A stretch of 41,228 bases of DNA from Chloroflexota bacterium (GTDB taxonomy: Bacteria > Chloroflexota > Ktedonobacteria > Ktedonobacterales > JADMIN01). The position numbers were made by a program, and so were the translations under genes. The first letter of the stretch is position 1. Each line of letters starts with the position of its first letter. This document shows, one piece after another, positions 6,440 to 36,971 of the stretch. A model generated the notes under the pieces. It saw only the letters and a program-made list of their open reading frames with translations. It was not told the DNA's origin and did no database searches. Location: assembly GCA_021814145.1 (NCBI GenBank), contig JAKAIY010000014.1:1-41228 (forward strand), written 5' to 3'.

Positions 6440-7123
6440 CTATTGAAAGCCTCCTGTTGAGGCTCGCGAGCGCTTGACATCCCCGCAGTTTACCGCTACT
6501 TATTGCCAAGTTATTAACAATCGCTATTCTACAATTACCCGCACCGAATTTGGTACAACTCTTGCGAGGCAAGGACACTGCCACAATGATGGCTACATCG
6601 TTAGCGGAAATGCGCATAGCGCGCTGTGTGCAACGGAGCCAACGCTATCAATGTGACATGCTTCATTGGAGGTCGAGGCAAGCGGGCCGCACGCGCGACC
6701 CACTGACTGTACGGACAACTCTGGAAACTCTCCGTCTGATGACTGGACCCGATACAGAGGCCGTGACACGAGGCGCTGTGCGGATCACGCTGTTTGCGGC
6801 TCAGCATGCCTGGCAGCACGTGACAATGGGGCAAGGACGATGAGGGAAGACGGCCGCATCTGGGCGGTTAGCCTGATGTGTCTTCTGGGAAGTGCGTGGC
6901 GCGGTGAGTGGCGGGTATATCCGCCAAGGCAATGGATTGAGTCAGAGGGTGAGTGATTGCCCTCGTCGCAAAGCAGTCAGCTAGGCGTGTCGCGCCGCCT
7001 TGGCGCTCGCGCCGGACTATGCGCGTGGCATGGTCGCACGCCAGTGATGACAAGGCGACAGACATCGTCACAAGCAGGATTATGTGAGTCGCACGGTCTC
7101 ATTAGGAATGGAGGAGACACGCT
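6440..7123. other. intergenic region with an AT-rich island
   Basis: About 680 bases with no supported gene. Positions 6470-6560 are clearly more AT-rich than the surroundings and begin with a TTGACA hexamer at 6473-6478, followed 17-18 bases on by a weak TA-rich box (TACTTATT); this may be a promoter or a remnant of imported DNA. Several short frames follow (for example 6841-6956), but none has a recognisable motif. The ribosome binding site GGAGGAGA of the next gene closes the region. Confidence 0.4.
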
Positions 7124-9001
7124 GTGAGATCCGGAGCATTCAGACGCGGATGGTCTGCGCTGGCCATCATCTCTTTGTTCGCGCTCATCATAGCTGGAGC
7201 GGCGCTCGCGGTCACCATCAACAAAGCGCACGCGGCGCCAGTGACCGGCGCCGCCTTCACCACGGTCAACGAGACCGTTGACGGAAGTGGCCACTGCCTG
7301 AACGGAAACCCCTCCGTCAACTGCAACATCTACGATGGCAAGGATTATGTGTGGCTGAATGGCGGGCCGGTCGCGGCGAGCCTCGGGGATGGCAAATATT
7401 TCTTCGCTGTGCTGGATCCGGGTTCGCAGGCCAACCCAAATGACGGCGCGACCGGCAACCTGAGCGACACCACCGCCACGAGCTCCACCGATCTGGGCTC
7501 AGGAGACCTCTACACCAACCGCACGTTCACGATCTCGGGCGGGACGATCAGCTACTCAGGCTCGCACGACTTCAATAGCAACAAGATCCGGCTCATGCCG
7601 TACGATGATACGTCAAACCCCGGCGGCGTCTATATTCTGGCGATCTGCTCGCTGGCGAACGGTTATCCTGTCACGCCCAGCGCCTGTAAGTACGACGCGT
7701 TCAAGGTCCAGACAGGTGAGGTTCAGCAGGGTTTGCCGCTGGACATCACCAAGGACGCTAATGGGGCCTACACGAACACGTACACCTGGAGCATTCAAAA
7801 GGACGTAGACAAGACGCTCGTCAAGCAGGTCGGCGGGAACGCGACGTTCAACTACACTGTGACAGTGACCCACGATGGCGGGACGATCAGTGATGTGAAG
7901 GTCAGCGGGACCATCCAGGTTTACAACTCGAACACCGACAGCAGTAACAACACGGTCGGAGTCGCGATAACTGGTGTGACGGATACGCTGTCCAATGGCG
8001 TAGTCTGCGCCGTCACGAATGGCGGGAGCCAGACGCTCACCCAGTTCACGACAGACTTCCCGTACACCTGCGACCTCTCGGCCCTGCCGCAAGGCCAGCT
8101 TGACAACACTGCCACAGTGACCTGGCCGCAGCAAACCCTCAGCGGAGGCGCCTCGCTGGCCGCTGGCTCGGCGGATTTCACGTTCTCCAATATCGTCTTC
8201 ACGCCGACCCTGGTGGACAACTGCGTGACGGTGACGGACACCTTCAACGGAACGATGACAACGCTCGGCGCGCCATGTGTGGGTGACGCGAATCCAACAG
8301 TCTACACCTATTCACACACTGTTCCGGTCCCGCAGTATGACTGTGTAACCTACGACAACACGGCGACCTTCACCACCAACACCACTGGGACCACAGGGTC
8401 CGCGAGCCAGTCGGTCACTGTGTGTGGCCCAGCGCGCACCGGCGCGCTGACGATGGGCTTCTGGCAGAATAAGAACGGCCAGGGGATCATCAAAGCGACG
8501 GGGAGCACTGCTGGTGTCTGCAACCTGACGACCTGGCTACGGCTGTACACGCCCTACCAGGATCTCAGCGGCACGACCTGCGCCGATGCGGCGACCTATG
8601 TCTATAACGTCATCAAGGCCGCCAATGCGGGTGGCGCGACGATGAACGCGATGCTCAAGGCGCAGATGCTGGCGACGGCGCTGGATGTGTACTACAGCGA
8701 TCCTGCGCTCGGCGGGAACCAGATCAATGCGCCCGCGCCAATCAGCGGTGTCAAGATAGATCTGACGATGATCTGCGCGCCGATCCAGAGCTCGGGCGGC
8801 ACGGTGACGTGTGGCGGCTACGAGAATGTCAGCGCGGCCTTCGGCGGCGCGTCCAGCATGACCGTGTCGGACATGTTGGCGTACGCCGCAAGCCAGTCAA
8901 ACGTCGGTGGCTCGTTCTGGTATGGTCAGGTCAAGGCGACGCAGGGCCTGGCGAAGGATGCGTTCGACGCGATCAACAACCAGGTAGCGTTCAGCGCATA
9001 A
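7124..9001 (+). CDS. large secreted protein with DUF11-like beta domains
   Basis: 625 residues starting at GTG 7124, with GGAGGAGA upstream. There is a clear signal peptide (RRGW, hydrophobic core about 11-32, cleavage near AHA-A at 37-38). The mature protein is rich in Thr, Ser, Asn and Gly. Residues of about 200-440 look like repeated extracellular beta-sandwiches (TVTHDGGTISDVKVSGTI; DFTFSNIVFTPTLVDNCVTV), with paired cysteines suggesting disulfides. The C-terminal 180 residues (from TGALTMGFWQNKNGQ) are a helical domain with four more cysteines, a type seen after DUF11 repeats in actinobacterial and chloroflexal surface proteins. No LPXTG motif or C-terminal transmembrane anchor is present, so the protein is probably released or wall-associated. 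Function unknown; a role in cell surface or spore coat is only a guess. A strong terminator follows. Confidence 0.85.
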   Translation: MRSGAFRRGWSALAIISLFALIIAGAALAVTINKAHAAPVTGAAFTTVNETVDGSGHCLNGNPSVNCNIYDGKDYVWLNGGPVAASLGDGKYFFAVLDPGSQANPNDGATGNLSDTTATSSTDLGSGDLYTNRTFTISGGTISYSGSHDFNSNKIRLMPYDDTSNPGGVYILAICSLANGYPVTPSACKYDAFKVQTGEVQQGLPLDITKDANGAYTNTYTWSIQKDVDKTLVKQVGGNATFNYTVTVTHDGGTISDVKVSGTIQVYNSNTDSSNNTVGVAITGVTDTLSNGVVCAVTNGGSQTLTQFTTDFPYTCDLSALPQGQLDNTATVTWPQQTLSGGASLAAGSADFTFSNIVFTPTLVDNCVTVTDTFNGTMTTLGAPCVGDANPTVYTYSHTVPVPQYDCVTYDNTATFTTNTTGTTGSASQSVTVCGPARTGALTMGFWQNKNGQGIIKATGSTAGVCNLTTWLRLYTPYQDLSGTTCADAATYVYNVIKAANAGGATMNAMLKAQMLATALDVYYSDPALGGNQINAPAPISGVKIDLTMICAPIQSSGGTVTCGGYENVSAAFGGASSMTVSDMLAYAASQSNVGGSFWYGQVKATQGLAKDAFDAINNQVAFSA

Positions 9002-9032
9002 CAGTCCGGCGCGCTCATAGCGCCCAATAGCA

Positions 9033-9085
9033 AGCCCGCGCGGCAGGCCTCTGAACGTTGAAGCTTGCCGCGTGGGCTCATTTTG
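9033..9085 (+). terminator. rho-independent terminator after the secreted protein gene
   Basis: AGCCCGCGCGGCA (9033-9045) pairs with TGCCGCGTGGGCT (9066-9078), one mismatch in 13, and is followed by CATTTTG. It starts 32 bases after the stop codon at 9001. Confidence 0.8.
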
Positions 9086-9410
9086 TATGAGCGTCTCTCC
9101 CCTCCCTGCAAGAAGCGCGGCCCTGCGGCCGCCTTGATAGAAGGCGTTGACGCCCCGACAGGGTGGCGCCAACGTCGCCGCTATGAAGCAAGCTGATGAA
9201 ACAGGCTCCGCGCGAGGGTGTCCATGTCTCTGAGAAGTCGCGCGCGTGGCGCCATCGGGCGCCACAATATGCTGGCATGCCCATCTGAAGCGAAGTAGTC
9301 AGGCGAGCGAACTGGAACTTTGCGCCCCGCGTCTCCGTCGAAGAACAAGGAAAGGAAGTGAGACGCGATGCGACGACTCCTCATGCCCCGTCGCCCGCTG
9401 GCGCGCGGCG
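9086..9410. other. intergenic region, nothing recognised
   Basis: About 320 bases between the terminator and the next small frame. Frames here have no family motif and no good ribosome binding site. The frame of the following small protein is open from 9246, but the extra residues are low-complexity and basic. Confidence 0.35.
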
Positions 9411-9641
9411 ATGACGGAGAAGCCGGACGGAGCGCTTGCCGATAGCTATATCGCCCGCTGGCAGGGGGTCGGGTGTTCCTATGGGACCATCACCTTCGCG
9501 ATGTACACCTTCACCTGGCATGGAGCGCCGGTCGAGGTCGTCTCACCCGCGCCAGGCTGCGCCGGGGGCGGGTATCAGGTGTCGAGCGGCGGGATACCGG
9601 ACTGGAACGTCTATCTCATTAATCCGCTGCCACAGCCATAA
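9411..9641 (+). CDS. small hypothetical protein, possibly a gene fragment
   Basis: 76 residues from ATG 9411 to TAA 9641. The C-terminal part (YGTITFAMYTFTWHGAPVEV and IPDWNVYLIN) has the alternating pattern of a beta-sheet protein and looks like real coding sequence rather than a shadow. The upstream part lacks a clear ribosome binding site and the frame extends to 9246. It may be the surviving C-terminus of a longer secreted protein. Its last 23 bases overlap the end of the convergent gene on the other strand. No family was recognised. Confidence 0.4.
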   Translation: MTEKPDGALADSYIARWQGVGCSYGTITFAMYTFTWHGAPVEVVSPAPGCAGGGYQVSSGGIPDWNVYLINPLPQP

Positions 9642-11793
9642 GCGCGAGCCTGGAATGTCCCTCGTCCGCCTTGCCCCAGACGACGTGGACGCCATGCGAC
9701 GCGCCCAGCGCGCTCCCCGTATCAAACGCCCGCGCCTGGATCAGGCCCACCGCCCCAACCGCCAGCAGGAGCGCCACCGCGACGCCACGCCGCAGCGCGC
9801 CCAATCTCTCCTCAGAGTCCCAGAGGGTCGCGAACGCGGCGCCCACCAGCGGCAGACCGAACAGCAAGCCAAACACGATATGCCGCTCCGCGTCCACCGT
9901 GCTGTTCGCCAGCGCGAGCGCCACCGGCCACACCAGCATCCCGGCGACCAGTGTCACCGCCAGCCGCCCCCGCTCGCGCGCCGCGATCCACCCGGCGATG
10001 ACCATCACCCACGCCAGGGCGCCAATCGCCAGAATCCGCATGCCGGCGGCGCTCACGGAAACGCTCAGCGACAGGCCCGCGCGTGACCGGCCCGGAAGGA
10101 GCGCGAGCGCGCTCTCAGGCGCCGGGAAGACGCGGCTCGTGACAATCGCCGCGACGATCATGCCCGTGATGAGTAATCCCGTAGCGGTGGAGCGCCCGCG
10201 CAGCGCCAGCGCCACCCCAAGCAGCGGTATGAGACAGAGAGCCGCGGAAAACTGGGCGATCACGGCCACGGCGCCCGCGCACGCCGCGACGATCAGCCAT
10301 TCACGCTGGCGGGCAGCTGACGCCTGGGTGATCGCCCAGAAGCTCACCGCCACGCCCACCAGCGCCAGCTGGTCGGGGACCGCGAGGTGGGCGAAATAGA
10401 TCACTGGCCCGCTGAGCGCGAAGATGATCGCGGTGAAGATGCCCGCCACCGGGCCGAAGAGGTTTTTCGCCGCGCCCGCGCTCGCCAGCCCCGCGAGCGT
10501 CGTGCAGATGATGGCGATCACCCGGACGCCGATCAGGCCGCCGATCAGATAGCTCGCGCTCGTCATGGCGGGCCAGAGCGATACGCCCGTGAGATGGCTG
10601 AGCGCATTGTACGTGGACGACAGGGCGCCTCCCCGCAGAACCCGCGCGCCCTGCGTGATGGCGTCGGTCTCATCCGGCAGGGGGCTCGCCTGCCAGAAGA
10701 ACGTGAGCAGCGCTATCTGCGCGAGCGCGAAGAGCGCCATGATCGCGACGATGGGCTGCGAAACCAGCGCCAGCGCGCGGTGGCGCAACGGCGTGGGCTG
10801 GCCCATCCCCACCCGCAGCGCCTCCACCATCCCCAGCGTGTCATCGCTCGCATTCTCACGCGCGCGCTCGCCAGGCATGCTGGGCGTGTCAGGCGTGATA
10901 GGCTCAGGCAGTTCCATGCCGGGCGAAGATGGCGCCGATCTGAACAGCGACAGCGCCTCGAAGGCCTCCTCCTGCAGCGCCTCTTCGTCCTCGACTGATG
11001 GCGAGGACAGGAACGGCGCGCCCGTCCGCAGGAGCGAATAGTCAGGCCCCATTCCAGGAGTGTTCCTGCGCGCCAGCCGCGCCGTCTCCGCGTCCAGCGC
11101 ATTCTGGCCGTGCGCCAGCCGCGCCGTCTCCGCGTCCAGCGCCTCCGTCCCCCACTCCGGTTGCGCCGCCGTCTCCCGCCCCGGCGGCCTGGGAGTCAGG
11201 TGGGTGGTCGTCTCATCATCCAGCGCCGGGGACCTGGGCCGCAGCCGCGTCGTCTCCACCTCCAGCGCCGGGGGTCTGGGCCGCAGCCGCGTCGTCTCTG
11301 TCTCCAGCGCCGAGAGCCCGGAAGCCAGCCGCGTTGTCTCCGCCTCCGTCATGTGATGTGTGGGAGGAAGCTGGGTGGTCTCGGCCTCCGAGACGGGATG
11401 CGCGGGAGAAAGCAGCGTCGTTTCGGCGTCTGGGAGCGCCGGAAGCTGAATATGCGGGCGCTCCCTCGTCACCGGCATCTGGTCCGTGTCAGCGTTCAGC
11501 ATCGCGCTGAGCCCGCCACGCTCCACATGAGCGGAAGAGGCGGGCGCGTCCGGCTGGGCGTCCGCGCCGCCGGGCCTGTCATCCGCGACGGGCGGCTTCG
11601 AAGCGGGAACCGGCGGGAGGGGCGGGAAGATGGGCGAAAGCGTGTCACTATCCGCGCCGCCGGGCGCTCTCGCGCTGGCGGCTGGCGTCGGGGAACCGGG
11701 CGTGGGCGCCTCTGGAGACGGCTCATCCTGTGAGGCGGGCCATTCTGAGGAAAAGCGTGTGTCCGCTGGCTGGTCTTCCGGTGTCTCGCCCAT
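9619..11793 (-). CDS. GT-C-like membrane protein with N-terminal Glu-Thr-Thr repeat region
   Basis: 724 residues from ATG 11793. Residues 1-120 are Pro/Ala/Asp-rich and disordered. Residues 122-240 contain nine copies of a 14-residue repeat centred on [DEV]-E-T-[TA]-x-L (Glu at 124, 138, 152, 166, 180, 194, about 207, 222, 236). Residues 245-335 are acidic and polar. From about 341 there are 10-12 transmembrane helices. The loop after the first helix carries PDETDAITQGARVLRGG, like the acidic loop of GT-C enzymes (PMT/ArnT type) that transfer sugars from lipid carriers. The other half of a normal GT-C protein, the soluble C-terminal domain, is absent. The N-terminus probably faces the cytoplasm. 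ETT-type motifs are known kinase targets and FHA-binding sites in actinobacterial proteins such as GarA, so a phospho-regulated scaffold is possible (inference). Confidence 0.75.
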   Translation of the reverse strand: MGETPEDQPADTRFSSEWPASQDEPSPEAPTPGSPTPAASARAPGGADSDTLSPIFPPLPPVPASKPPVADDRPGGADAQPDAPASSAHVERGGLSAMLNADTDQMPVTRERPHIQLPALPDAETTLLSPAHPVSEAETTQLPPTHHMTEAETTRLASGLSALETETTRLRPRPPALEVETTRLRPRSPALDDETTTHLTPRPPGRETAAQPEWGTEALDAETARLAHGQNALDAETARLARRNTPGMGPDYSLLRTGAPFLSSPSVEDEEALQEEAFEALSLFRSAPSSPGMELPEPITPDTPSMPGERARENASDDTLGMVEALRVGMGQPTPLRHRALALVSQPIVAIMALFALAQIALLTFFWQASPLPDETDAITQGARVLRGGALSSTYNALSHLTGVSLWPAMTSASYLIGGLIGVRVIAIICTTLAGLASAGAAKNLFGPVAGIFTAIIFALSGPVIYFAHLAVPDQLALVGVAVSFWAITQASAARQREWLIVAACAGAVAVIAQFSAALCLIPLLGVALALRGRSTATGLLITGMIVAAIVTSRVFPAPESALALLPGRSRAGLSLSVSVSAAGMRILAIGALAWVMVIAGWIAARERGRLAVTLVAGMLVWPVALALANSTVDAERHIVFGLLFGLPLVGAAFATLWDSEERLGALRRGVAVALLLAVGAVGLIQARAFDTGSALGASHGVHVVWGKADEGHSRLALMAVAAD
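11064..11440 (-). repeat. 42-bp in-frame minisatellite coding the Glu-Thr-Thr repeats
   Basis: Eight to nine tandem units of 42 bp (14 codons) inside the GT-C-like gene. The plus strand shows the recurring core GCCGCG(T/C)CGTCTCC followed by the TCCAGCGC block; neighbouring units near 11070-11150 and 11230-11300 are nearly identical, while outer units have drifted. The exact codon period means that gain or loss of units keeps the frame. Confidence 0.8.
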
Positions 11794-23513: not shown

Positions 23514-23576
23514 CCCCGTAGCGACGCCCGCTCCGCTACGGGGAAAGCCGTAAGAGATACGCGAGCATGTCTTACG
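23514..23576 (+). promoter_or_regulatory. two hairpins just upstream of the prkA start
   Basis: CCCCGTAGCG (23514-23523) pairs perfectly with CGCTACGGGG (23534-23543), loop of 10; then CGTAAGA (23549-23555) pairs with TCTTACG (23570-23576), loop of 14. There is no U-tract, so translational control or mRNA stability is more likely than termination. The ribosome binding site AGGAGG follows at 23597. Confidence 0.5.
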
Positions 23577-23611
23577 CGCCCTCAACTGGCGTGAACAGGA
23601 GGACAGGCAGT

Positions 23612-26878
<3,267 letters not shown>

Positions 26879-30223: not shown

Positions 30224-30298
30224 TGGTGGCCCCACTGGGAATCGAACCCAGATGCCCGGTTTAGAAGACCGGTGCTCTATCCATTGAGCTATGGAGCC
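30224..30298 (-). tRNA. tRNA-Arg (anticodon UCU)
   Basis: Reading the minus strand: acceptor GGCTCCA pairs with TGGGGCC (one G-U), D-arm AGCTCAATGGATAGAGC, anticodon stem CCGGT/ACCGG around the loop CTTCTAA with anticodon TCT, T-arm with GGTTCGATTCC, discriminator A and an encoded CCA end. It reads AGA codons, which are rare in this GC-rich DNA. Confidence 0.97.
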
Positions 30299-30743: not shown

Positions 30744-32564
30744 TCAGCGCGCGGAGGTCGCGGCGGGTGTGGGGATAGGAACCGGCGTGATGACGCGCCA
30801 GAGGGGTGTCTGGATCAGGATGAGCGTGAGGACGCCCAGCAGCGCCAGCGCGAGGTAGATGCGCCAGGTCCGGCGGTAGTAGCGCTCGAAGTACGCGCTG
30901 GCCTGCGCGGCGGGCGCGCGGAGCTTGCGGCGCTCCTCCCCGGTCAGCTCACTCATCGCCTCCAGGGTCGAGTCCAGCGCCCCGCGCTCCAGGGTGTAGC
31001 GCTCATGGCGGGCGCGGAGCAGATACCACATGATAAAGGCGACATACACGGTGTAGAGCAGGGCGGCGAGGGTCGCGACGGCACGCGACGCGGTCGGCTC
31101 GATCAGGCCGGCGATGACGACCCCGGCGATCAGGCCGGCGGTCTTGAAGAGGTTGTCCACCACATCGCTGGTGAGATCGCTGACGGCTTTGCGCGTGGCG
31201 TCGGCGTAGCCGTTGATGGCATCCCGCGCGGCGTCGCGGAGCTGGAAGTAGCGCTCGGCGGCTCTGCGCAGGTAGAGCGCCAGATTGGCGCGCGCGGCGC
31301 CCAGGGCTGGCCCCGCCGCCGCGCGGACGCCATCCAGCGTGGCTTCCGCCGCGATGGGGAGCTCGCCGCCCAGCGCTTCGCGCGCGATCGCCAGCCGGTC
31401 GGGCGAGGCGTCGCGGTAGGCCCAGTCCGCCAGGGCGATCAGCGCGTCCGGCTCCTCGTCCTGGCCAGGGCCGGCGTCCGTCGCGGGCGGGACAGGCGCG
31501 GCGGATGGCGCGGCGAGGTCAAGCCGCAGGGTGGCGGGGCGCGTTCCAGCGAAGCGCAGCATGGCCACGCGGCCATCTGACGTGAGGTCACTGGCCAGAG
31601 CGCAGGCGGCGATGGCGACACGCAGGCCAGCCAGCCGCTCCGCGACCGCCTCCAGGCCGGGCATGCGGACCGTGACGCGCAGGTGGTCGGGCATGAAAGG
31701 CAGATCGAGGCCGCTCCACGCGCTCTCGTCATCGCGCAGCTTGCGCGCGCGCGCGACCCGCCGGGTGAAGCGCCGCCAGGCCTGCGGAGTGAGCGTGCGC
31801 CATTCGGTAGGGGCGGGGCCAGCCGCGCCAATCACCTCCAGCGCGACGCCAGCCAGGTAGCCAGTCCCCTCACAGAGGGCGACCAGCGCGCGCCGCTCGT
31901 CGCCGCCAGGGCCGCGCTCGCGCCAGAGCGACCCCGCGCGCGGCGCGAGCAGCCGCCACAGCGCGGCCTCAGCATAGAAGACCACGCAGGCTACCGGCGC
32001 CTCCGGCGCCACAGCCTTCGCCGCGCGCGCCGCCAGTAGCCGCTGGGCCTGGGCCAGCGCGGCGGTCTTGCCGATGCGCAGCCGCACATCCACTGAGACG
32101 CTATCGCCCTGGGTAGCCGCCACATCCTCCGCCGCCGCGCGGAAGTCCGCCAGCGCGCGCAGGGGATCGCGGCCCGCGCGCAGCTCAGCGGTGACTGGAT
32201 CAAGCGACGGGTCGAGGCCTGAGAGCGACAGGTCGAGCTCCAGGTCATCGCCAAAGAGCGCGAACGCCTGGCGCAGCGCCGCGTCTTCAACTCCAGCGAT
32301 CTCAGCGACCGTGCGGTTGATGTTGCCTTCCACCCGGTCGAAGACCTCAGCGGCGGCCAGCGCGTCCTGGCTGAAGCCGAAGGCCAGGCCAAGCGCGCGC
32401 GCCATCTCGCCCATCCCGCGCAGCGCCGCCAGCGCCGCCTCCTCCGGCGTTTCCGCGACCCCGGCTGGCGCGGGCCGTTCCGCTGGCGCGGGCGGCGCTT
32501 CATGAGCGTCAGGCTGGGCGAGTGGGCGTCTCGCCGGACGCTGGGGCTGCCGTGCGCCGCTCAC
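30744..32564 (-). CDS. three-helix membrane protein coupled to an NA37 protein
   Basis: 606 residues starting at GTG 32564, overlapping the stop of the upstream NA37 gene by four bases (GTGA), so the two are translationally coupled. Layout: disordered Pro/Arg/Ala N-terminus (1-40); large soluble alpha/beta region 45-350 (FDRVEGNINRTVAEIAGVED, LRIGKTAALAQAQRLL); Pro linker 350-370; helical segment 375-470; transmembrane helices about 475-493, 497-516 and 567-585; C-terminal tail outside or in the envelope. No enzymatic motif was recognised: IGKTAAL at 164-170 resembles a fragment of a P-loop but lacks the leading glycines. The partner is a predicted nucleoid-binding protein, so the pair may link DNA state to the membrane. 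Family unknown. Confidence 0.8.
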   Translation of the reverse strand: MSGARQPQRPARRPLAQPDAHEAPPAPAERPAPAGVAETPEEAALAALRGMGEMARALGLAFGFSQDALAAAEVFDRVEGNINRTVAEIAGVEDAALRQAFALFGDDLELDLSLSGLDPSLDPVTAELRAGRDPLRALADFRAAAEDVAATQGDSVSVDVRLRIGKTAALAQAQRLLAARAAKAVAPEAPVACVVFYAEAALWRLLAPRAGSLWRERGPGGDERRALVALCEGTGYLAGVALEVIGAAGPAPTEWRTLTPQAWRRFTRRVARARKLRDDESAWSGLDLPFMPDHLRVTVRMPGLEAVAERLAGLRVAIAACALASDLTSDGRVAMLRFAGTRPATLRLDLAAPSAAPVPPATDAGPGQDEEPDALIALADWAYRDASPDRLAIAREALGGELPIAAEATLDGVRAAAGPALGAARANLALYLRRAAERYFQLRDAARDAINGYADATRKAVSDLTSDVVDNLFKTAGLIAGVVIAGLIEPTASRAVATLAALLYTVYVAFIMWYLLRARHERYTLERGALDSTLEAMSELTGEERRKLRAPAAQASAYFERYYRRTWRIYLALALLGVLTLILIQTPLWRVITPVPIPTPAATSAR

Positions 32565-33757
32565 TCGTTCACCTCACGGAAGATGAGCGACGAGAGGGTC
32601 AGCCGCGTCTTGCCCTCGGCGTCGCGCTCATCCATGACCTGGACGAGCGCGTCGAAGTGAGCCACGCTGACGCTCAGCCGCGCGCCGCCATCCAGCTCGA
32701 TGGTCACTTTGTCCAGATACTTTTTCGCGGCGGCGCGATCAACGGGGAAGAAGGGATGGTCGCTCATCGTCCCATCCATGCCATCCTGGTCGAAGAGCGC
32801 GCTGGTCAGCCGCGCTACCAAGCTCTCCGCCTCGACGGGTCTGCCGGGCAAGGCGCGCCCAGCGAACGTGCGCAAGTCCACGCGCTCGCCCGCCAGCGCC
32901 TCGCGCCGGGCGGCGTAGAAGTCCCGCAGCTCGCGCGGAGTGAACGCGCTGGCATGGCCCTGGAGCCAGGCGCCCGTCTCGGAGAGGAACAGGCGGGTCT
33001 GCCGCCGGGCCGAGGCGGCCAGCGTCGCGGCGAGAAAGTCGCGGTAGAAGAACGCGGCCACGCCATCCGATTTGGGGCCAGCCTGGTTGTCGAGCAGGCG
33101 TATGGTGAACTGGCGCGCGCCATCGTGAGCGGAGCCGCTAGCGGAGATGAGGGCGCATTTCTGCAGGCTCCGGGCCTCAGGCAGGAGGTTCGTAGCGTGC
33201 TCAATCGTGACATGGACACGCCCGCTCATCCGCCGGAAGGCGCGCGCCAGCCGCTGCTGGTCGGGGTCCATCTTGAGCAGCGCGACGTGGCGCTCGTCGC
33301 TGGCGCCGGTGACGTAGGCGATGACGACGAAATCGCCGGGAACGATCTGGCCGGCGCGTCGCTTCATGAAATCGTAGAGGCGCTGGGCCAGCGCGCGTGA
33401 AGCGGCGACAAAGCGCGCGGAATCACCGAGCAGCTCCAGGAGGCGCTCTGGTATCTCGCCATCATCCTCGCGGATGCGCGCGCGCCAGTCGGCCCGCTCG
33501 CTGGCGGAGAGGACGTGGCTGGTGAAGAAGCGCTCGCTATCCGCGTCCAGAATCACCTCATCATCCACCAGCTCGCAGCGGCCCGCGCGATGGTCCAGAT
33601 GGTGGAGGATAAGCCGTTCGATGCGAATCGCGGGCGCGGCGCCCTGTCCGTCTCGCGGGCTAGCTGGCGCGCTTCCGTTCTGTTCCGCGCCCCGTATCAC
33701 CACGCTCTGCGCCACGCTTGCGCCGGACTGGCGCTCACTGATCCGCCCTCGCGTCAT
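32561..33757 (-). CDS. NA37 / YejK-type nucleoid-associated protein
   Basis: 398 residues from ATG 33757, preceded by GGGAGAA. After a 40-residue disordered N-terminus, RIERLILHHLDHRAG (45-59) matches the start of the 37-kDa nucleoid-associated family (PF04245; E. coli YejK/NdpA). Further features are LDADSERFFTSHV, GDFVVIAYVTGASDERHVALLKMD (141-164) and, near the C-terminus, FFPVDRAAAKKY (336-347), where E. coli YejK has FPVDR followed by a helix. The family binds nucleoid DNA; its molecular role is poorly known. The next gene starts within its stop codon. Chromosomal YejK homologues usually stand alone, so the tight pairing with a membrane protein is uncommon and suggests a dedicated module. 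Confidence 0.8.
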   Translation of the reverse strand: MTRGRISERQSGASVAQSVVIRGAEQNGSAPASPRDGQGAAPAIRIERLILHHLDHRAGRCELVDDEVILDADSERFFTSHVLSASERADWRARIREDDGEIPERLLELLGDSARFVAASRALAQRLYDFMKRRAGQIVPGDFVVIAYVTGASDERHVALLKMDPDQQRLARAFRRMSGRVHVTIEHATNLLPEARSLQKCALISASGSAHDGARQFTIRLLDNQAGPKSDGVAAFFYRDFLAATLAASARRQTRLFLSETGAWLQGHASAFTPRELRDFYAARREALAGERVDLRTFAGRALPGRPVEAESLVARLTSALFDQDGMDGTMSDHPFFPVDRAAAKKYLDKVTIELDGGARLSVSVAHFDALVQVMDERDAEGKTRLTLSSLIFREVNE

Positions 33758-34895: not shown

Positions 34896-36971
34896 ATGGA
34901 CTCCTTTGAACACCACAGCGCGGCGCACCAGACCCGGCAGGCCGCCGTGGATGAGCGCGCGCCGCTGACCCTGTGGGGCCAGGTCTCGTTGAGCGCGCTC
35001 TGGCTGGGGATCAACGCCATTTCCGCCGCGTTGCTGCCAATCGTTTTGCCGCTTCAGATTCTGCTGTTCGTCGCGCCAGGAGCGGTCGGGAACGCGCAAC
35101 AGGCGGTGTTTCTGGGCTGGCTCTCCGCGCTGGGAGCGGTGATCGCGTTGCTGGCCCCGCCGCTCATCGGGACGCTCTCTGACCGGACCACATCGCCTTT
35201 TGGCCGCCGGCGCCCCTACATCCTGCTCGGCGTGGTGATCTCGGTCGTGGGAGCGTGGGCGCTGGCCCGGCCCGCCGACCTGAGCGCGCTGGTCATCGCG
35301 TTCCTCGTCCTGCAGCTAGGCTTCAACATCGCGGTGGGGGCGTATCAGGGGCTGCTGCCCGACATCACGCCAGAGAGCCAGCGCGGGGCCGCCTCAGGCT
35401 ATCTGGGTCTGATGACCATTCTGGGCAATGTCGGCAGCCTGGCGCTGGCGGGCGTCCTGCTGGCGAACGTGACGCTCACCGAGGGCGTCACCGACAGCGG
35501 GCGCGCGGCGATCATCAACGGCTCCGCCATCTTCTATGCCACGACCGCCGCCGTGATGGTCGTCACGACGTTCATCACGCTTGTCTGGACACATGAAACG
35601 CCGCTGAGCGCGGTGGAAGCGGCGGCGCTGCGCCCGGCGCCGCCGCGCGGCGCGAGCCGGCTGGAGCGCGGGCTGCAATCGCTGCGCGCGCTCTGGCTGG
35701 AGCCGTGGAAGAGCCACAACTTCACCTGGGTGTTCCTGACGCGGGCGTTCGTGATGATGGGGCTGACGCTCTTCCTGACCTTCATCGAATACTATTTCGC
35801 CAATGTCCTGGGCGTCTCCAGCTTTGTCAGCGCGACGGCGGTGGTGGCGGGGCTGGCGCTGCTGGGCGCGGTAGTCAGCGCGCTGACGCTGGGCATCCTC
35901 TCCGACCGGATGATGAACCGGACGCTGCTGGTGGGCGTCTCTAGCGGGCTGATGGCGCTGCCAGCGCTGGTGTTCGTCATCGCGCCCGCACAGCTCCCAC
36001 TGTGGCCGCTGGGCATCGTGTTTGGGCTGGGATACGGCGCGTACACCAGCGTGGACTGGGCGCTCGCGGTGGATGTGCTGCCCGTGCGGACCAGCGCCGG
36101 CAAGGACCTGGGCATCTGGAGCGCCGCCTCAACCCTGCCCGCCATCCTCGCGCCCGCGCTGGGTGGCGGTGTGATCGCGCTGGTGAACGCGGTGTGGGGA
36201 CAAACGGCGCCGGGCTATCAGGCGGTCTTCGCGCTGGCGGCGGTTTTCCTGGTGCTGGGCGCGATCTGCGTCTCGTTCATCCGTGGCGAGCCAGGCGCGA
36301 CCTCCACGCCTTCCGCGCCTCCGGCGGCCACAACCGAACGCCGCCGGCCAGGGCTAGGGTGGCGGCTCGCGGGCGGCTCGCGCGGTGGACGGCCGCGCGG
36401 GTTCCTGCGCTTCTGGCCAGTCTGGGAATGGGTGACACGAACGACCAAGCCGGTGTCGCCAATTCCCAACGCGCCGCAGGGCCTGATCGGCGTCCACCTT
36501 GAGCGTTATCATGGCCGGCCCATCACCCTGCCTGATGGAACCCGGATTACGCGCGGGACGTGGATCGGCGCGCTGCACCTCAACAACCGGAAGGTAAGCG
36601 AGCTCGCGCGCGAGACAAGCTCCTGGCGGATCGCCCGCATGATCGCCGGGGACCTGGCCGCGCTGGCGCGCTGGGCGGAAGGGCCGGGCGAGATCGCGCG
36701 CGCGCAGGCTTTCATGGGCGTCACGCTGCTGGGACGCGCCGGCCCCCGGCTGGGCTTTACGCTGCGCGAGCGCCCCAGGACGATTCACGCGCGGCTGGAG
36801 CGGTTCTTCATGGAGGGCTTGCTGGCGATGTACAACCCGGAGGGCGTGCGCCGGCTAAAGCGTGGCGCGACCTACACCACCTATCCGGTGGAGATCTGGA
36901 TGTCGCGCGGAGAGTTGCTGCGCCGCTATGGCTCGGTCCTCACACGGACTCCTGAGAAGAGCGGGGCGTGA
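34896..36971 (+). CDS. MFS transporter fused to a YkoP-like C-terminal domain
   Basis: 691 residues from ATG 34896. Residues 25-470 are a 12-helix major facilitator transporter of the GPH/sucrose-symporter type, with the loop 2-3 motif GTLSDRTTSPFGRRRPYIL (about 92-110) and GILSDRMMNRTLL in the equivalent C-half loop. A Pro/Arg-rich linker (about 470-515) follows, then a soluble domain of about 170 residues: GLIGVHLERYHGRPITLPDG, RGTWIGALHLNNRKVSEL, GRAGPRLGFTLRERP, FFMEGLLAMYNPEGVRRL and YPVEIWMSRGELLRRYG. This resembles the YkoP-like domain of Bacillus, otherwise separate or joined to polysaccharide deacetylases. The domain should lie in the cytoplasm. The substrate is unknown; a lipid- or polysaccharide-linked substrate is only suggested by the domain's other contexts. 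Confidence 0.8.
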   Translation: MDSFEHHSAAHQTRQAAVDERAPLTLWGQVSLSALWLGINAISAALLPIVLPLQILLFVAPGAVGNAQQAVFLGWLSALGAVIALLAPPLIGTLSDRTTSPFGRRRPYILLGVVISVVGAWALARPADLSALVIAFLVLQLGFNIAVGAYQGLLPDITPESQRGAASGYLGLMTILGNVGSLALAGVLLANVTLTEGVTDSGRAAIINGSAIFYATTAAVMVVTTFITLVWTHETPLSAVEAAALRPAPPRGASRLERGLQSLRALWLEPWKSHNFTWVFLTRAFVMMGLTLFLTFIEYYFANVLGVSSFVSATAVVAGLALLGAVVSALTLGILSDRMMNRTLLVGVSSGLMALPALVFVIAPAQLPLWPLGIVFGLGYGAYTSVDWALAVDVLPVRTSAGKDLGIWSAASTLPAILAPALGGGVIALVNAVWGQTAPGYQAVFALAAVFLVLGAICVSFIRGEPGATSTPSAPPAATTERRRPGLGWRLAGGSRGGRPRGFLRFWPVWEWVTRTTKPVSPIPNAPQGLIGVHLERYHGRPITLPDGTRITRGTWIGALHLNNRKVSELARETSSWRIARMIAGDLAALARWAEGPGEIARAQAFMGVTLLGRAGPRLGFTLRERPRTIHARLERFFMEGLLAMYNPEGVRRLKRGATYTTYPVEIWMSRGELLRRYGSVLTRTPEKSGA

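Follow-up and report, generated by a model that had tools for sequence, protein, structure and literature searches.

The window (the whole 41,228-nt stretch of DNA analysed here) carries on its minus strand a pair of overlapping genes, which we call NA37 and MEM after their products. Their ORFs lie where an earlier reading, made without database searches (the sequence-only reading), had placed them. The features of the locus are as follows:

32561..33757, minus strand: NA37, the first gene of the pair, encoding a 398-aa NA37/YejK-like protein (PF04245, AlphaFold2/Foldseek)
30744..32564, minus strand: MEM, the second gene of the pair, encoding a 606-aa membrane protein (no family; AlphaFold2, hydropathy)
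32561..32564, minus strand: GTGA stop/start overlap of NA37 and MEM (sequence)
32569..32575, minus strand: likely Shine–Dalgarno sequence of MEM, GAGGTGA, within the final codons of NA37 (judged from its sequence and position)
30224..30298, minus strand: neighbouring tRNA-Arg(TCT) gene, downstream of the pair and on the same strand (ARAGORN)

The junction reads ...cgtgaggtgaacgaGTGagc, with the TGA stop codon of NA37 overlapping the GTG start codon of the downstream MEM; the GTGA overlap claimed by the sequence-only reading is therefore real. A motif resembling GGAGGTGA occupies the equivalent position in most orthologous NA37/MEM junctions. The nearby tRNA gene that had also been proposed proved to be tRNA-Arg(TCT), 446 nt from the pair, but the truncated gene said to adjoin the pair did not materialize, as there is no recognizable gene fragment next to it. 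GC3 values of the two genes (0.84 and 0.86) fall within the range of their neighbours (0.80–0.90). An ORF of ~109 aa upstream of NA37 has no relative among the retrieved loci.

Elsewhere in the window, a PrkA kinase gene (23567–26878, plus strand, 1103 aa) contains an intein between its AAA domain and its C-terminal domain (Intein_splicing above cut-off; LAGLIDADG_3, E value 1.5e-16) and is followed by DUF444/YeaH and then SpoVR genes, while an ORF at 34896–36971 (plus strand) encodes an MFS transporter fused to a YkoP domain.

Sequence and predicted structure of the two proteins

The assignment of the first gene to NA37/YejK, a resemblance already noted from the letters of the DNA, is solid on both profile and model. 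The protein scores well above the curated cut-off of the Pfam family PF04245 (E value 3.2e-17; 63.4 bits, cut-off 24.6), and a Foldseek search of its AlphaFold2 model (mean pLDDT 77.6) against the PDB returned E. coli YejK (9be2) as the sole significant match (E value 1.9e-9, probability 1.00), with a TM-score of just 0.42–0.48 and an uncertain domain orientation. Residues 1–41 are variable and modelled at low confidence. Orthologues within the Ktedonobacterales family to which the window belongs share 42–61 % identity. YejK is a nucleoid-associated protein, and the YejK/NA37 family has so far been regarded mainly as a minor nucleoid protein. By virtue of its family, the NA37 of the window would be expected to bind DNA.

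MEM comprises a soluble alpha/beta part (about residues 40–400), long helices and three transmembrane helices at the C-terminus, predicted as follows:

31095..31151, minus strand: transmembrane segment 1, residues 472–490 (Kyte–Doolittle 1.61)
31026..31082, minus strand: transmembrane segment 2, residues 495–513 (Kyte–Doolittle 1.96), followed by a K/R-rich stretch, indicative of the cytoplasmic side
30804..30860, minus strand: transmembrane segment 3, residues 569–587 (Kyte–Doolittle 2.09), preceded by a K/R-rich stretch

Applying the positive-inside rule to the K/R-rich stretches between segments 2 and 3 would place the soluble part of MEM in the cytoplasm. No significant match to MEM was found in Pfam (including the RelA_SpoT domain), in PADLOC or among PDB sequences, nor could an effector domain or catalytic motif be recognized. 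Hydropathy, model and searches thus agree with the original description of a familyless protein with a large soluble part and three C-terminal helices. The structure prediction that had been called for yielded a model (mean pLDDT 77.7) with very long C-terminal helices, for which fold searches returned nothing at E≤0.001 in the PDB or among viral models. Two candidate relationships were tried using hhalign: a relationship to NA37 itself was rejected (probability 0.2 %), and the DUF4231 protein of a Klebsiella plasmid scored the same (0.2 %), the latter being a weak test based on a single sequence.

Distribution of the pair and of its partners

The window comes from an uncultured member of the Ktedonobacterales (Chloroflexota), its named relatives being MAGs of that order. 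Both proteins are present in 8/11 genomes of the window's family. In a ninth, MEM lies on a contig that begins inside the gene, and completeness is 58 % and 79 % for the remaining two. At each of the eight family loci (8/8), the genes are adjacent, keep their order and overlap by 4 nt. The usual flank of the pair consists of a divergent gene for a ~130-aa protein and, further off, a gene for a Dna2-like nuclease-helicase, relatives of which are found across the order. This family-conserved neighbour is absent beside NA37 in the window; the two flank genes instead stand together, without the pair, on a different contig in this assembly (G000:C215; L075, 2023–6087), a rearrangement in the window's species. 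The helicase gene is also far from the pair in G005 and on a separate contig in G009. The surroundings have therefore undergone repeated rearrangement around a pair that itself stayed intact. Being near-universal in the family and lying beside family-conserved genes, the pair is inherited there and not recently inserted.

This result bears directly on the claim that the tRNA gene and the truncated gene mark an insertion into the chromosome. A co-oriented tRNA gene does follow the pair in 7/8 family loci, being Arg(TCT) in four and Ala(CGC) in three, and its identity varies by sub-lineage (loci L012, L020–L024 and the window; L025 has none), as might be expected if the pair were a foreign element recently inserted at a tRNA gene. 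Against this, the pair lies 5′ of the tRNA gene, no duplicated tRNA end was found in the window, no integrase was identified near the pair, GC3 is native and orthologues occur throughout the family, mostly with the same neighbours. With the truncated gene gone as well, the insertion argument falls, and we regard a recent foreign origin as extremely improbable.

NA37 is scarce in the phylum: PF04245 was detected in 9/400 genomes, seven of which belong to the window's family. Such genome counts are lower bounds, since the first MEM profile missed G146 and the PF04245 search evidently missed G618; the phylum-wide picture is drawn from samples, and many loci come from metagenome assemblies. By these counts, the other members of the order and nearly all of the phylum lack the pair, but it recurs in four distant Chloroflexota genomes:

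G146 (L083): NA37 8565–9644, MEM 9623–11299; only ordinary neighbours
G408 (L089): NA37 107–1174, MEM 1171–2832; followed by an XPB/DUF790 helicase gene
G827 (L092), minus strand: NA37 8268–9338, MEM 6625–8262; tyrosine integrase gene (PF00589, E value 5e-28) on one side, AbiEi_2/AbiEii-like gene pair on the other
G618 (L103), minus strand: NA37 9474–10451, MEM 7742–9481; SIR2 (E value 3e-53) and HerA (E value 3e-140) genes about 2.7 kb downstream

In total, MEM homologues were found at 11 further intact loci and at one lost in part at a contig end. NA37 directly precedes MEM in 12/12 loci with complete genes, spanning five Chloroflexota families; the overlap is 4 nt in nine of the 12, 22 nt in L083 (counted from the ATG at 9623) and 8 nt in L103, while L092 has a 5-nt gap. 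An order repeated at every intact locus, in nine of them with the same overlap, is not attributable to chance. Coarse trees of NA37 and MEM, limited by long branches, recover matching groups (G146 with G408, G827 with G618, and the window's family). Outside this family, MEM is sporadic (3/288 genomes of another class; 1/24 in the family of G827). Beyond the Chloroflexota, coverage consisted of one scan with the family MEM profile together with plasmid and phage records; no MEM homologue was found in phages or plasmids. Viral contigs contained no relatives of NA37 or MEM, and an Ochrobactrum NA37 scan also found nothing.

The expectation that the two genes would co-occur as a pair in other genomes is thus borne out by their adjacency at every intact locus. 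The further idea that they would lie near known defence genes holds for G827 (AbiE-like genes and an integrase) and G618 (SIR2-HerA) but not for the other two accessory loci, and four loci are too few for statistics. Evidence against a functional pair had been envisaged in two forms. Independence of the genes applies to one side only: no intact MEM locus lacks an adjacent NA37 gene (12/12), whereas NA37 does occur without MEM. A fixed core-genome position is found within one family only, the pair being sporadic elsewhere in the phylum.

Where NA37 occurs without MEM, it mostly has a RelA/SpoT partner or resides in a phage. In the Chloroflexota genome G264 (L084), NA37 overlaps a RelA_SpoT-domain gene (E value 2e-11) by 4 nt. 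Units of NA37 and RelA/SpoT genes were also found on the Klebsiella conjugative plasmid NZ_CP092398, preceded there by a DUF4231 membrane gene, on the Ochrobactrum plasmid NZ_CP022602 and on the Streptomyces plasmid NZ_CP130719, where a 34-nt gap separates NA37 from its RelA_SpoT partner (E value 8e-15). In Neisseria gonorrhoeae NZ_CP119142 (L096, 6001–8047), the gene after NA37 is RelA/SpoT-like, its frame being split into two pieces. Neither MEM nor a RelA/SpoT partner is annotated alongside the NA37 genes of Clostridia phages and plasmids, and the Klebsiella pair had no near match among E. coli genomes. Because related NA37 genes pair with a RelA/SpoT enzyme instead of MEM, NA37 appears, in this small sample, to be the constant component and the downstream partner an exchangeable one.

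Two of these loci merit separate mention. The consecutive DUF4231, NA37 and RelA/SpoT genes of the Klebsiella plasmid (L093, 6096–8659) constitute a candidate three-gene conflict operon, and the N. gonorrhoeae locus has a transposase-like gene upstream and a repressor-like gene near NA37.

Possible functions and comparison with known systems

The pair is probably an undescribed two-part system for defence or stress. More specifically, we put the probability that it serves as a two-gene conflict module, directed against phages or a related stress, at about one half, a reading from sequence that draws on the accessory distribution of the pair, the defence or mobility genes near 2/4 accessory loci (G827 and G618) and the exchange of partners. 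It is also in keeping with published work: in the accessible part of the DefensePredictor report, the YejK nucleoid-associated domain is among the domains newly validated in E. coli phage defence (PMC13092281), so that a YejK-domain system is defensive in that host. The reading is weakened by the state of the pair in the window's family, where it is near-universal, GC-ameliorated and beside conserved genes, unlike a typical defence island, as well as by the ordinary neighbours of L083 in G146, the proximity to defence genes at only two of the four loci and the want of an effector domain in MEM. Of the two-gene defence or stress module first proposed, the co-inherited overlapping unit and the proximity of some copies to defence or mobility genes have therefore survived, while the support sought from insertion has not.

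Were the pair a conflict module, translation of MEM would be coupled to that of NA37, so that the two proteins are produced jointly and assemble into a complex, and the presumably cytoplasmic part of MEM could meet DNA-bound NA37 at the membrane. Phage entry or a disturbance of the nucleoid might then serve as the trigger, with NA37 either signalling to MEM or holding incoming DNA at the membrane; the effect, exerted through the MEM helices, could be membrane damage and growth arrest or a block of incoming DNA. In the window's family, such a module would have turned into a fixed, inherited locus. As a tentative extension, to which we give somewhat less than even odds, NA37 could be the constant DNA-binding part of a whole class of conflict systems, each of two genes, in which the downstream partner is exchangeable. 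In several phyla this partner would be a RelA/SpoT nucleotide synthetase; the alternative, met with in Chloroflexota, would be a three-helix membrane protein so far without a name, and the MEM version would be a core locus in one Ktedonobacterales family. A role for NA37 as a sensor, or as a DNA-binding adaptor, of exchangeable effectors is suggested by its pairing with either a membrane protein or, in other lineages, an enzyme resembling alarmone synthetases. If true, defence systems would gain a new modular class, whose small clonable loci permit a direct test, and a conflict module would be seen to have become fixed as a locus across a whole bacterial family.

The main rival is a housekeeping nucleoid–membrane tether of the Ktedonobacterales family without a phage role, in which NA37 would bind the chromosome and MEM anchor it for chromosome organization, segregation or stress. 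Presence in 8–9/11 family genomes (the others being 58 % and 79 % complete), a conserved neighbourhood with a ~130-aa protein and a Dna2-like helicase, relatives of which occur order-wide, GC3 like that of the neighbours and the nucleoid association of YejK would all fit such a role; yet a housekeeping function sits poorly with a pair that other members of the order and almost the whole phylum lack and that appears sporadically in distant genomes, near integrase, AbiE and SIR2-HerA genes, and with the plasmid-borne units in which related NA37 genes have a RelA/SpoT partner. On balance, we consider a tether rather unlikely. Less probable still, with only an outside chance, is a toxin–antitoxin-like unit in which MEM alone would be toxic to the membrane and NA37 would restrain it and repress the operon. 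Two overlapping genes with a candidate regulator first, a three-helix membrane protein, sporadic occurrence outside the window's family and the position of NA37 ahead of RelA/SpoT genes, whose fold includes toxic synthetases, are all reminiscent of such units. MEM proteins (~550–640 aa), though, are far bigger than the known membrane toxins of these systems, and no loss-prone behaviour was seen in the window's family.

Among known systems, the pair resembles in layout Kiwa, a two-gene system of a membrane protein and a DNA-binding partner, to which the sequence-only reading had likened it without claiming sequence identity. Assembly of Kiwa is activated at phage attachment sites. The membrane is where KwaA and KwaB act on DNA entering the cell, and Kiwa helps to hold such DNA (PMC12904381), a role that MEM might share as an alternative to harming the membrane. 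The pair is alike in joining a multi-pass membrane protein to a partner whose DNA binding is expected from its family, but there the likeness ends: no sequence or profile relation to KwaA or KwaB was found, none of 12 NA37 and 11 MEM proteins matched any Kiwa model in PADLOC, NA37 is not DUF4868 by Pfam, and Foldseek gives YejK, with no Kiwa protein among the matches listed. The original caution over sequence identity was therefore apt, and membership of the Kiwa family is highly implausible.

With the NA37/YejK (NdpA) family, PF04245, the first gene shares a sequence above the curated cut-off and a predicted fold like that of E. coli YejK. It differs from the chromosomal yejK of E. coli in its overlap with the gene of a membrane protein, with which it forms a unit, and in being sporadic in the phylum. 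As far as the accessible part of the DefensePredictor report describes it, the YejK system places a YejK/NA37 domain in a phage-blocking unit (PMC13092281), and the likeness to the pair is one of domain only. The NA37 and RelA/SpoT pairs of Klebsiella, Ochrobactrum, Streptomyces and G264 match the pair in arrangement, with NA37 first and the partner directly downstream, overlapping by 4 nt in all but Streptomyces; they differ in the partner, which is a RelA_SpoT-domain protein there and a three-helix membrane protein in the window.
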